Source: Weissella koreensis KCTC 3621 (lineage in GTDB: Bacteria; Bacillota; Bacilli; Lactobacillales; Lactobacillaceae). Taken from it: a DNA stretch of 64,000 nt. How positions within the stretch are numbered: the stretch's first letter is position 1; every line of letters starts with the position of its first letter. Made by a program: the position numbers and the translations under genes. The stretch is from contig NZ_AKGG01000005.1 in the NCBI RefSeq assembly GCF_000277645.1, forward strand, positions 124,001 through 188,000, written 5' to 3'. The notes under the pieces are model-generated. The model saw nothing but the letters and a program-made list of their open reading frames with translations, did not search any database and was not told the origin of the DNA. Of the stretch, positions 13,848 through 43,385 are shown one piece after another.

Positions 13848-14205
13848 GGGGTCGTTCCGGAATCGACTGGTGCTGTTTGAGCTAATGCTGCGTTTAGGGG
13901 TTGTGGCCCTATAATCCACTCAGACGAATTAACTGCAAAAAATTCAAACAACTTGGCTTTCGCTGCTTAAAAACCAGTGAACCAAACTAACACGATTGGT
14001 GGCCATCCAGTTTAGTTAGTCATAATAATTATGGCCTGCGCATAACGCTCCCATCTGAAGCTGTTATGAAGAGGATAATCAGATTAGCCTAAAGGATCGC
14101 CGGGTTAATTGGCGTGCCAAGGGCGAATTTTAAATTAATTAACTATGAACGTAGATGTATTAGTATCAAGGTATTAGGACAGGGGTTCAACTCCCCTCGG
14201 CTCCA
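13848..14205 (+). ncRNA. ssrA: transfer-messenger RNA (tmRNA)
   Basis: A one-piece tmRNA of 358 bases that rescues stalled ribosomes. The ends form a tRNA-like acceptor stem (GGGGTCG / CGGCTCC) with a GGGG-TTCAACT-CCCC T arm, and the CCA is not encoded. The tag frame starts at GCA (13935) and ends at TAA (13968-13970), encoding AKNSNNLAFAA with the hydrophobic C-terminus recognised by ClpXP. The pseudoknot-rich region follows the tag. Confidence 0.97.
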
Positions 14206-18696: not shown

Positions 18697-18786
18697 TGAT
18701 TAACAAGATTTAAACTAAATGATGGAAAAGCCTTGCTAATAATAAATTCATCTTTTATAATGAGAGCAATTGAATAATACCGAATG

Positions 18787-18896
18787 TTTAGTATAATCGT
18801 TGGAGAATGGCCAACGAGTTCCTACCTGCACCGAAACGCAGACTACTAGATGAAGCTTTTTGGCGCGCCCATTCATTTTTGTTTGGGTGCGTTTTT
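18787..18896 (+). promoter_or_regulatory. purine (guanine/xanthine-type) riboswitch and terminator
   Basis: P1 pairs TTTAGTA (18787-18793) with TACTAGA (18844-18850). P2 is GTTGG/CCAAC with loop AGAATGG. The J2/3 segment reads GTTCCTACC, and P3 is a very short TGC/GCA stem with loop ACCGAAAC. The J3/1 segment GACTAC keeps the cytosine that selects guanine-like ligands. A terminator follows: CGCGCCCA (18864-18871) with TGGGTGCG (18884-18891) and TTTTT. J2/3 has C where most family members have the third U of GUUUCUACC. The gene downstream is a xanthine-type permease. Confidence 0.8.
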
Positions 18897-41198: not shown

Positions 41199-42629
41199 AT
41201 GGAAGAGAATACACAATTATCACCACGAAGGGTTAATTTAATCTTGGTTGCATTAGGTATGTTTACCTTTATGTCCACTTTGGATGCATCAATTGTTAAT
41301 ATTGCATTGCCCGTGATGGCAAATGATTTATCTATCCCGATGAATCAGGCTACTTGGTCAGTTTCAATATATTTAATTACCATATCAGGACTTTTAACCT
41401 TGTTTGGTAATTTAGGGGATCAACTTGGTAAAATTCGCGTCTTTAAGTGGGGGACTTATATTTTTACATTAGGTTCGCTCTTAGCGGGAATTAATTTAGG
41501 ATTAGGCTTTTTGTTATTGGCCCGAGTGGTTCAAGCAGTGGGAGCTTCTATGACAATGAGCAACTCTTTTGGGATCTCAACATCGGTCGCACCAGCTAAC
41601 ATGCGGGCACGAGCGATGGCAACCATTGCTATGTTTGTATCATTAGGATCAATCGCAGGACCAGCTGTGGGAGGCTTGATTTTATCAATTTTGAAGTGGC
41701 CTTTTATTTTTTGGATTAATGTACCATTAGGTTTAATCACAATTGTTTTAGGTGAATTTATTTTTCCAAAAACTAATCGGACCAAAGAGCTTTTAACGAT
41801 TGATTGGATTGGGACAATTATTTTTTTCATGATGATCGCAATTTTCTTTGGTGGAATTAATGTGGCACAAGAGCAAGGATTCACAGCAATATTACCGATT
41901 GTTAGTTATATTTTGAGTATAATTTTGTTGATTTCATTTATTAAATGGGAACAACGAACTTCAAAACCATTAATTGATCTATCAATTTTTAAAGAAAAAA
42001 TGTTTACTCTGTCAGTCATTACATCGTTTTTGGTCTTTGCTTCAGGTTTCTTTATTAATGTACTTTTGCCCTTTTACTTGGAAAACTTGCGGCAAATTAA
42101 GCCAGGCGTAGCAGGAATGTATATGATGTCATATCCTTTAGCTATGCTAATTGGGACACCCATTGCAGGGGTGATTGCCGATCGATTTGATCGTGAATAT
42201 GTTACATTCTTTGCTTTAACGGGGATTACCTTAGGGATGTCAGGTTGGTTGTTTATGACTGATCAAAGCCCACTTTATTTTGTGGCGATGTTAAGTGCTT
42301 GGACTGGATTCTCAACATCCTTCTTTAATTCTCCTAATAACGCAATTACGATGTCAAATGCACCTAAATCACAATTAGGAGTTGCGGGAGCCATTAATGC
42401 TTTGGCTCGTAATGTGGGAATGATTTCTGGAACCACAATTGTAACAACAACACTTTACATCTCAATGTCTAAGCAAATGGGACATCAAGTCACCACGTAT
42501 CCAGTGGGCCATCCGACAGTCTTCGTGAATGGATTACATTTCGCGATGTTCTTTGGAATGTTTTTAGTATTAATTGCTTGGTCTTTGACAGGTTACCGTT
42601 TGATTTTAAGATTGCACAATAAGAATTAG
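41199..42629 (+). CDS. DHA2-type MFS multidrug exporter (EmrB/QacA-like)
   Basis: A 476-residue proton antiporter with 14 predicted TM segments. Subfamily motifs are FMSTLDASIVNIALPVM near 24-40 (TM1), the LGDQLGKIRVFKWG loop near 71-84 (motif A) and the motif C-like GPAVGG region near 153-158. It probably exports lipophilic or cationic compounds; substrate unknown. AAGGAAG precedes the ATG. The promoter of a separate RNA gene lies within its last codons. No adjacent TetR or MarR regulator is visible. Confidence 0.92.
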   Translation: MEENTQLSPRRVNLILVALGMFTFMSTLDASIVNIALPVMANDLSIPMNQATWSVSIYLITISGLLTLFGNLGDQLGKIRVFKWGTYIFTLGSLLAGINLGLGFLLLARVVQAVGASMTMSNSFGISTSVAPANMRARAMATIAMFVSLGSIAGPAVGGLILSILKWPFIFWINVPLGLITIVLGEFIFPKTNRTKELLTIDWIGTIIFFMMIAIFFGGINVAQEQGFTAILPIVSYILSIILLISFIKWEQRTSKPLIDLSIFKEKMFTLSVITSFLVFASGFFINVLLPFYLENLRQIKPGVAGMYMMSYPLAMLIGTPIAGVIADRFDREYVTFFALTGITLGMSGWLFMTDQSPLYFVAMLSAWTGFSTSFFNSPNNAITMSNAPKSQLGVAGAINALARNVGMISGTTIVTTTLYISMSKQMGHQVTTYPVGHPTVFVNGLHFAMFFGMFLVLIAWSLTGYRLILRLHNKN

Positions 42630-42640
42630 TTTGCTATAAT
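42612..42640 (+). promoter_or_regulatory. near-consensus promoter of the unknown RNA
   Basis: TTGCAC (42612-42617), a 17-base spacer and TATAAT (42635-42640) with a TG extension one base before it (extended -10). It overlaps the last codons and stop of the MFS gene. Confidence 0.85.
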
Positions 42641-42646
42641 ATATTT

Positions 42647-42881
42647 TATGCGATGAGTCGAGAAAGATTATTACGATAATCTTTTACAGACGGCCAACGT
42701 TAACACCCGAATGGTGGTTGGTGCAAGGGAAGTTGTGGAACTAAACTTGCTGCACAGACTACAACTTAGCAATAAGTTGGTGTACGTCGACAGTTAGGTA
42801 AAACTAACTCCTGAGTTGATGCAGGTCTTACATCAACAACGCCAAACATGAAACCCCGTAACTTCGAGTTGCGGGGTTTTT
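42647..42881 (+). ncRNA. structured noncoding RNA of unrecognised family
   Basis: About 235 bases follow the strong promoter and end in an intrinsic terminator, AACCCCG (42852-42858) with CGGGGTT (42872-42878) and five T. No ORF explains it. Several perfect or near-perfect hairpins follow one another: AAAGATTAT/ATAATCTTT with a TACG loop (42663-42684), CCAAC..CACC/GGTG..GTTGG (42694-42721), GTGCAAG/CTTG..GCAC (about 42721-42755), TAC-AACTT/AAGTT..GTA (about 42750-42785), AGTTAG/CTAACT (42792-42809) and GTTGATG/CATCAAC (42814-42836). It lacks the T-box antiterminator motif, SRP and RNase P cores and a rod-like 6S shape. The gap continues to 43025 and holds the yvlD promoter. Confidence 0.75.
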
Positions 42882-43025
42882 GTTAGGTTTTTTTATTTGA
42901 TGAAAAATTAGCGGAAGTTAATTATTTTTTATTATGATATATTATAAAATAGCATAGGAATAATGGCATAGGACTATTCTTTTGGTATAATGAAAGACAA
43001 TAAGGAAGAAAAAGAGGATTTATGC

Positions 43026-43385
43026 ATGGGACTAAAGCGTTTTTCATTTTTACAGCGAGTGATAATTAATATGATTATTCTGTTAGCTTTAGCAGGATTA
43101 TTTCAGCAAGGCCTCTATGTACAAAGCTTGTGGAGTGCTTTCATGGCTGCCGTAATTTTGGGTGTTTTAAATGTCTTTGTGCGTCCAGTCTTGCAAATTT
43201 TAAGTTTACCATTGACCTTTTTTACGTTTGGTTTATTTTCATTCGTGGTTAATGCGTTTGTTTTATGGATGACTAGTTGGTTTGTCGGACCTGGTTTTCA
43301 ATTTACTAGTTTTGGATGGGCCTTCTTTATTTCTTTGATTATGTCGCTAGTTAATGCGATTTTATCAGATTTTTTTAGTCGCTAA
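43026..43385 (+). CDS. yvlD: YvlD/phage-holin-like small membrane protein
   Basis: A 119-residue protein of the DUF360 (YvlD) family with four TM segments. Conserved features are GVLNVFVRPVLQILSLPLTFFTFGL (about 45-69) and the end NAILSDFF. The ATG at 43026 has GAGG nine bases upstream. In Firmicutes this family often lies in front of hprK, as here with a 14-base gap, which implies an operon. Function unsettled; in B. subtilis the relatives are linked to cell-envelope stress. Confidence 0.88.
   Translation: MGLKRFSFLQRVIINMIILLALAGLFQQGLYVQSLWSAFMAAVILGVLNVFVRPVLQILSLPLTFFTFGLFSFVVNAFVLWMTSWFVGPGFQFTSFGWAFFISLIMSLVNAILSDFFSR

Follow-up and report, generated by a model that had tools for sequence, protein, structure and literature searches.

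What is encoded in the ORF-free DNA between a transporter gene and yvlD in Weissella koreensis KCTC 3621, and does it act by itself or as the leader of the genes that follow it? We analysed this locus within a stretch of 64,000 nt from contig NZ_AKGG01000005.1, here called the window. The gene in question, of about 235 nt, lies between an MFS transporter ORF (41199–42629, + strand) and the ORFs of yvlD and hprK, which are listed from 42990 and 43400 on the same strand (+); the listed yvlD start is the first ATG, and translation may in fact begin further downstream. The names MFS, yvlD and hprK are putative and come in part from a first-pass annotation made by eye. Between the MFS stop at 42629 and the listed ORF at 42990 there was no + strand ORF of at least 40 aa, in agreement with the ORF-free interval of about 235 bases that the first-pass annotation had described. 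That annotation had also called the promoter (42612–42640, +) near-perfect and extended. The -10 box, TATAAT at 42635–42640, is indeed perfect and is extended by a TG one base 5′ of it, but the wording was too strong for the weak -35 box, TTGCAC at 42612–42617, which has three of six letters as in TTGACA and lies 17 nt from the -10; a promoter scan scored TGCACA-16-TATAAT at 10/12. This -35 falls inside the MFS ORF, at its 3′ end. An A was found at the place of A42648 in 85% of 71 related loci, which makes A42648 the likely RNA start and gives a likely length of about 235 nt (42648–42882, +), with a putative 3′ end. The RNA closes with an intrinsic terminator (42852–42882, +), with its stem at 42852–42863/42867–42878 and then a T-run, as previously proposed.

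The first-pass annotation held the RNA to be of no recognised family, and the Rfam check that it had itself suggested overturned this view. Using cmscan at gathering thresholds, RF02840 (Ref68/Lacto-3, Enterococcus sRNA 68) matched 42649–42743 over the full model length, at 50.3 bits against a gathering score of 44. By sequence, the window RNA is almost certainly a member of RF02840; our confidence in this membership, and in the homology to MarS discussed below, was lowered because of tests on tail-less sequences. Like the window RNA, RF02840 comprises a 5′ tail, P1, P2 and P3 and has a single place per matched genome, but its 124-position model stops in P3 when aligned to the window and is without the P0 closing helix, P4, the terminator and the 3′ extension of the window RNA. 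At E ≤1e-3 it matched 147 of 295 Lactobacillales genomes, 75 of them over the cut-off, at one place each, and among 299 genomes drawn from the whole class 18 matched at E ≤0.01, with 17 in the window's order and one outside (E 0.0099). In genus g2, which belongs to the window's own family, 0/13 genomes matched RF02840 or RF01732 (asd/MarS), which may reflect a lineage loss.

Within 42300–43300, at E values up to 10, no match to T-box, tmRNA, RNase P, SRP, lysine, glmS, M-box or Lacto-usp models was seen, and only RF02840 reached its cut-off. The exclusion by eye of T-box, tmRNA, RNase P, SRP, glmS, lysine, M-box and 6S thus held up, as none has an Rfam match here. 6S RNA (RF00013) is stand-alone and of similar size to the window RNA, and was rejected as a candidate, with no RF00013 match in the window or across the whole of the nearest genome (G001); the same search found the control 6S of L. 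lactis. Weak, non-canonical 6S candidates are reported for Weissella in the part of the source available (PMC8414754). The 3′ extension described below does not simply track 6S weakness, as Leuconostoc carries the extension too. Elsewhere in the window, a purine riboswitch aptamer over its Rfam cut-off was found at 18769–18865, and a tmRNA with the tag peptide AKNSNNLAFAA at 13848–14205.

The window RNA folds around a closed junction. Its conserved 5′ tail, AUGCGAUGAGUCGA (42648–42661, +), is unpaired in the consensus and partly paired in the free-energy minimum, and is followed by the P1 hairpin seen in the window fold (42663–42684, +). The P0-closed junction (42689–42788, +) is formed by GACG at 42689–42692 pairing with CGUC at 42785–42788. 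Inside it lie P2 (42693–42722, +) with its inner hairpin P2b (42704–42716), drawn from single-sequence parsing and compensatory changes, then the P3 hairpin (42723–42750, +), and P4 (42752–42783, +), which has an inner hairpin and a bulged GACUA (42757–42761) that accompanies extended forms. P3 carries the conserved UUGUGGA at 42733–42739, the proposed mRNA-pairing site, which in the window is partly within a 4-bp inner helix and has GUGG free. Beyond the junction, a 3′ extension consists of P5 (42792–42809, +; window fold and covariation alignment), an H-type pseudoknot (42810–42837, +; CCUG at 42810–42813 with CAGG at 42822–42825, GUUGAUG at 42815–42821 with CAUCAAC at 42831–42837) and, by sequence comparison, a conserved GCCAAAC (42841–42847, +). 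The earlier count of at least six hairpins therefore stands, as there are seven (P1, P2b in P2, P3, P4, P5, the pseudoknot hairpin and the terminator), but their description as a tandem array does not, since P0 encloses P2, P3 and P4 and one hairpin supplies half of a pseudoknot. None of 200 dinucleotide shuffles folded as well as the window RNA (z -4.68), and the same was true without the terminator (z -2.86, 0/200). With the compensatory changes across relatives, this establishes that the fold is not due to chance. The free-energy minimum, in which tail pairs take the place of P0, is 12.9 kcal/mol more stable than the nested consensus fold.

RNAalifold returned no pairs and no structure on a 41-sequence alignment, and structures were therefore parsed sequence by sequence. 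The plan was taken from 71 loci, each read and parsed alone; 70/71 were parsed, and seven misparsed loci were given P0 ends set by hand. The common plan is a tail UGCGAYGAGYYGA, P1, and P0 enclosing P2, P3 and P4, followed by the terminator. Because RF02840 or a tail-containing pattern was used to find the loci, tail conservation is partly an effect of how they were chosen. The tail reads GAUGA or GACGA by group, and in many loci, those of the GACGA group excepted, as in the window (42648–42656), the RNA probably starts AUGCGAUGA, a possible leaderless AUG-CGA-UGA. Changes in P0 were matched on both sides (ACAG/CUGU, GCGG/CCGC, GUGG/CCAC, AUGG/CCAU and GGUAG/CUACC, and the window's GACG/CGUC against AACG/CGUU in L062–L065). 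When the per-sequence structures were voted onto a 23-sequence MAFFT alignment, 80.0% of cells paired (68.0% in shuffled controls) and 46/54 pairs had changes on both sides (29.3 shuffled). The compensatory score was 0.391, compared with 0.210 in shuffles (0/500) and 0.106–0.159 in slid controls, where the structure, drawn from the same sequences, has an advantage over the slid controls and the shuffles ignore kinship. The covariation that the first-pass annotation had proposed to look for in relatives is thus present above both kinds of control. The MAFFT alignments are partly misregistered (in alignment A2, P0 is out of step from one group to another). In streptococci both P0 and P4 are short and uncertainly parsed.

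The extended forms carry, ahead of the terminator, the bulged P4, P5, the pseudoknot and a GCCAA-type tail. The pseudoknot has a 4-bp S1, a 1-nt L1, a 7-bp S2, no L2 and a 5-nt L3, the geometry of a classical H-type pseudoknot. It could be formed in 23/23 sequences, chosen by eye, with S1 as CCUG/CAGG, CCGG/CCGG, ACGUG/CGCGU, CGC/GCG, CGU/ACG or GACGU/ACGUU. S1 complementarity was 11.5 compared with 7.1 for permuted loops, and the observed value was never reached (0/10,000), in related sequences whose hairpins had been preselected by a score rewarding S1. In the extension alignment every cell of S2 was paired (100%) and 4/5 of its pairs had changed on both sides; S1 was paired in just 68.5% of cells, in what is a partly misregistered MAFFT alignment. 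The covariation score of the extension was 0.415 (0.166 shuffled), on a structure drawn from the sequences on which it was counted, which favours it over slid controls; further pair types were not above shuffles (47 compared with 44.7; 133/500). When all 111 loci were searched by one fixed rule, requiring the pseudoknot and GCC(A/G)A, 25 had the extension and 86 lacked it; letter shuffles gave 5/2,220. Weissella contributed four of the 25, Leuconostoc six, Fructobacillus two and Convivina one; the others were a Leuconostocaceae isolate, three Lactobacillaceae MAGs, seven other loci and the window.

A covariance model of the extension (R2), with the window among its training sequences, found one confident place in G001 (next E 0.12). 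On 76 other loci (74 of the 86 extension-less ones plus L001 and L120) it gave E <0.1 in L001 and L120 only. No Rfam family reached its cut-off over the extension. The extension, with its covarying H-type pseudoknot, marks the Leuconostoc/Weissella group; to date, it has turned up in no lineage other than Weissella, Leuconostoc and their close kin. It is a clade-specific structural gain on an existing sRNA, and a useful case of sRNA growth. It might add 3′ stability or a docking platform, although we consider such a role doubtful.

RF02840 and RF01732 (asd/MarS) are probably one Lactobacillales family, and the window RNA is a probable homologue of MarS. RF01732, searched at E up to 1e-3, matched 66 of the 295 Lactobacillales genomes (44 over the cut-off), bringing the union of the two models to 181/295. 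Both models matched in 32 genomes, at a common place and strand in 32/32 and with 5′ ends 1 nt apart in all. The weak RF02840 matches in genus g20, presumably Streptococcus, sit on RF01732 loci (L047, 122.5 bits; L048, 124.4 bits; cmscan). Families f5, f7 and f1 were matched by both Rfam models, and RF01732 matched other families at up to 57 bits. Beyond the tail, TGTGGA or TGTGAAC was present 55–150 nt into 66 of the 71 loci (all except L009, L022, L028, L038 and L061), compared with 91 of 3,562 background stretches (2.6%); TGTGAAC was found in 4/4 MarS (g20) loci and in 10/10 f5/f7 loci, with a background of 14/3,562 (0.4%). The link to MarS stands on the single place and start in 32/32 genomes, the tail exactly at that start, the families matched by both models (f5, f7 and f1) and the P3 motif.

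RF01732 therefore resembles the window's family in its 5′ end (with the 1-nt offset), tail, position of the P3 motif, terminator and loci in the common genomes, and differs from the window RNA in being shorter, in having UGUGAAC in place of UUGUGGA and in lacking the extension. With RF01732 the window scored 14.1 bits, far under the gathering score of 84, and we do not file it as a member of that family. Rfam shows no clan for either family. No relevant paper came up for Ref68 or Lacto-3 in the open-licence literature, where we also found none joining Ref68 with asd/MarS, none on a link to Lacto-3 and none on the extension. To our knowledge, few Gram-positive trans-acting sRNAs have been traced over a whole order with a covarying fold. 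If the two families are one, what has been learnt of the binding site, stability, target and phenotype of MarS could be put to the test in many lactic acid bacteria, harmless food strains among them.

For the locus as a whole we favour, as a reasonably probable explanation, a stand-alone sRNA gene acting in trans on mRNAs through the apical part of P3. Its own promoter would give the RNA of about 235 nt, the P0 junction would present P3, and the RNA would base pair with mRNAs through UUGUGGA here, as through UGUGAAC in MarS. By analogy, action in trans is likely, while pairing through P3 is a possibility that we rate a little short of even; P3 is proposed because the published mga-binding residues of MarS map to P3 of a homologue. 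In L060, which RF01732 matched at 141.8 bits, the CC of GUGUGAACC in apical P3 is at 87–88 counted from the T of TGCG. With a start one base further 5′, where RF01732 begins, it would be at 88–89. L060 is not known to be S. pyogenes. We also take SR914400 to be the asd/MarS RNA. In the portions of the sources available, the streptococcal asd/MarS RNAs are reported as sRNAs (PMC5613026, PMC4448216, PMC6212727), with Northern and growth-phase data for the S. agalactiae homologue (PMC4448216) and an sRNA annotation for the pneumococcal one (PMC6212727). The first-pass annotation's suggestion of a trans-acting RNA is backed by context and by published work on streptococcal MarS, a probable homologue.

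An alternative that we regard as unlikely is that the RNA has a structural or protein-binding function, of the housekeeping or sponge type, with the tail and P3 motif binding a protein or the transcription or translation machinery in place of mRNAs. The conserved loop could equally be bound by a protein or act as an mRNA seed, and the RNA has one place in each matched genome. The perfect complement of 11 nt of the tail occurred once per genome in five genomes of the window's genus, on the gene's own expected strand, with no second copy. Target prediction over 570 ortholog pairs of two genomes (G001 whole, and 955,853 of 1,355,853 bases of G033, with crude gene calls) was null, being no better than chance for either element: the best rank product was 74 for P3 (3–189 in 12 shuffles) and 42 for the tail (2–98). 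MarS is described as stable in the available text of PMC5613026, and SR914400 as highly stable in S. pyogenes in that of PMC2765633. Against a protein-binding role, the same text of PMC5613026 reports gel-shift evidence that MarS of S. pyogenes binds the mga 5′ UTR, loss of this binding when 88-CC-89 is changed, and a marS deletion that grows normally in THY yet has a regulatory phenotype. Action on mRNAs through P3 is the reading that we retain. A more elaborate version of it, which we think fairly improbable, would make the extension a separate functional module on an order-wide sRNA, a compact pseudoknot between the conserved AUGACUA and AUGCCAA that binds a protein or small molecule as a second input, with Ref68, Lacto-3, asd and MarS as one ancient core Lactobacillales regulator whose P3 motif switches targets between lineages.

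It is improbable, in our judgement, that RF02840 and RF01732 are not homologous and that the start-site motif, loop motif and terminator are alike by convergence or by recombination of the 5′ end. A hold-out model (R1) was trained on 23 sequences, none from g20 (the MarS genus) and none extended. It matched 40/40 held-out sources: the window, plus 39 of the remaining 48 loci after nine near-duplicates had been set aside. The loci had come from RF02840 matches; the window scored 36.2 bits (E 9.8e-10). Four g20 loci scored 21.9–29.6 bits (E 3.5e-5 to 1.2e-7), the extended form L026 85.7 bits and the f5 form L052, which RF01732 matches too, 52.9 bits. L026, carrying the extension, is a bridge for the window. 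The hold-out test leans on the tail. In a pattern scan of named genomes at least 80 loci were found; among the matches listed, 39 matched R1 at E <1e-6, all Lactobacillales by title, E was 1.4e-4 to 0.092, with at most 21.7 bits, for 12 that were non-Lactobacillales by title, and 29 were unmatched. All pattern-scan loci hold the tail by construction, so the tail by itself may suffice for a score of about 20 bits, and with the tail included the best non-Lactobacillales chance locus (21.7 bits) about equals the weakest MarS locus (21.9 bits).

With the tail cut, R1 still gave 8.5 bits for the window (E 0.0027 in 739 bases) and 24.8 bits for L052 (E 1.7e-8); the MarS loci L060 and L048 and the chance locus L140 were no longer matched, and with filters off tail-less L060 gave low scores only, none following the RNA. 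Tail-less L052 kept 13.5 bits with RF02840, which no longer listed the window or L060, and was no longer listed by RF01732. Cross-recognition of the families thus rests largely on the 13-nt 5′ tail. The blindness of both R1 and RF02840 to tail-less MarS, the window's low RF01732 score and the short, uncertainly parsed streptococcal P0 and P4 all suit separate origins. Set against these are the 32/32 common places with their constant 1-nt offset, the reach of RF01732 into other families, among them L052 with its tail-less R1 score, and the P3 motif common to both; a single family remains our reading. Whole-genome searching with R1 was insensitive, missing the nearest genome although the RNA is present, and absences were not used; G001, the nearest genome, has one confident match each for R1 and R2.

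Around the 111 loci, 398 neighbour proteins were compared. Neighbours vary by lineage, belong to several unrelated families and lie on both strands. One upstream family occurred in 27 loci, some with the plain form of the RNA and some with the extended one; other families occurred in 12 and 15 loci, and an MFS family in eight. Because neighbours differ between lineages, the RNA is an independent gene whose surroundings vary. The possibility that it is a 5′ leader or attenuator of yvlD-hprK, terminating or reading through on a signal, is very improbable. The RNA does lie on the same strand as yvlD and end in a terminator, a yvlD-like gene follows it in 10 loci belonging to the window's group, and the available part of PMC2864571 lists the asd motif with an open cis-regulatory question. 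However, the genes downstream differ by lineage, some being on the opposite strand; a promoter-like site, TATAAT with TG, lies ahead of yvlD at 42963–42991; and MarS is reported, in the text available, to be transcribed independently of its neighbours (PMC5613026). A leader of yvlD was rejected on that promoter-like site and on the inconstancy of the downstream gene across the 111 loci, and the first-pass description of the RNA as stand-alone was borne out by the same site and by the different adjoining genes in relatives. A scan of viral contigs with the yvlD protein confirmed 0/20 candidates. A dual-function RNA encoding a short peptide, for which one could cite the A before UGCG in 85% of the 71 loci, giving many loci a possible leaderless two-codon frame at their start, and the SD-like AAGG upstream of a 20-aa frame in the window RNA, was rejected as a peptide gene and is most improbable, as the two group-specific tail forms leave no conserved peptide in the tail. 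The + strand frames of at least 12 codons inside the RNA are 28, 27, 20 and 16 aa, with one common stop. At L061:1244–1574 (− strand) the gene itself looks split, with about 145 nt containing a terminator-like hairpin, perhaps an insertion, between the tail and P1 on one side and the P0–P4 module on the other.
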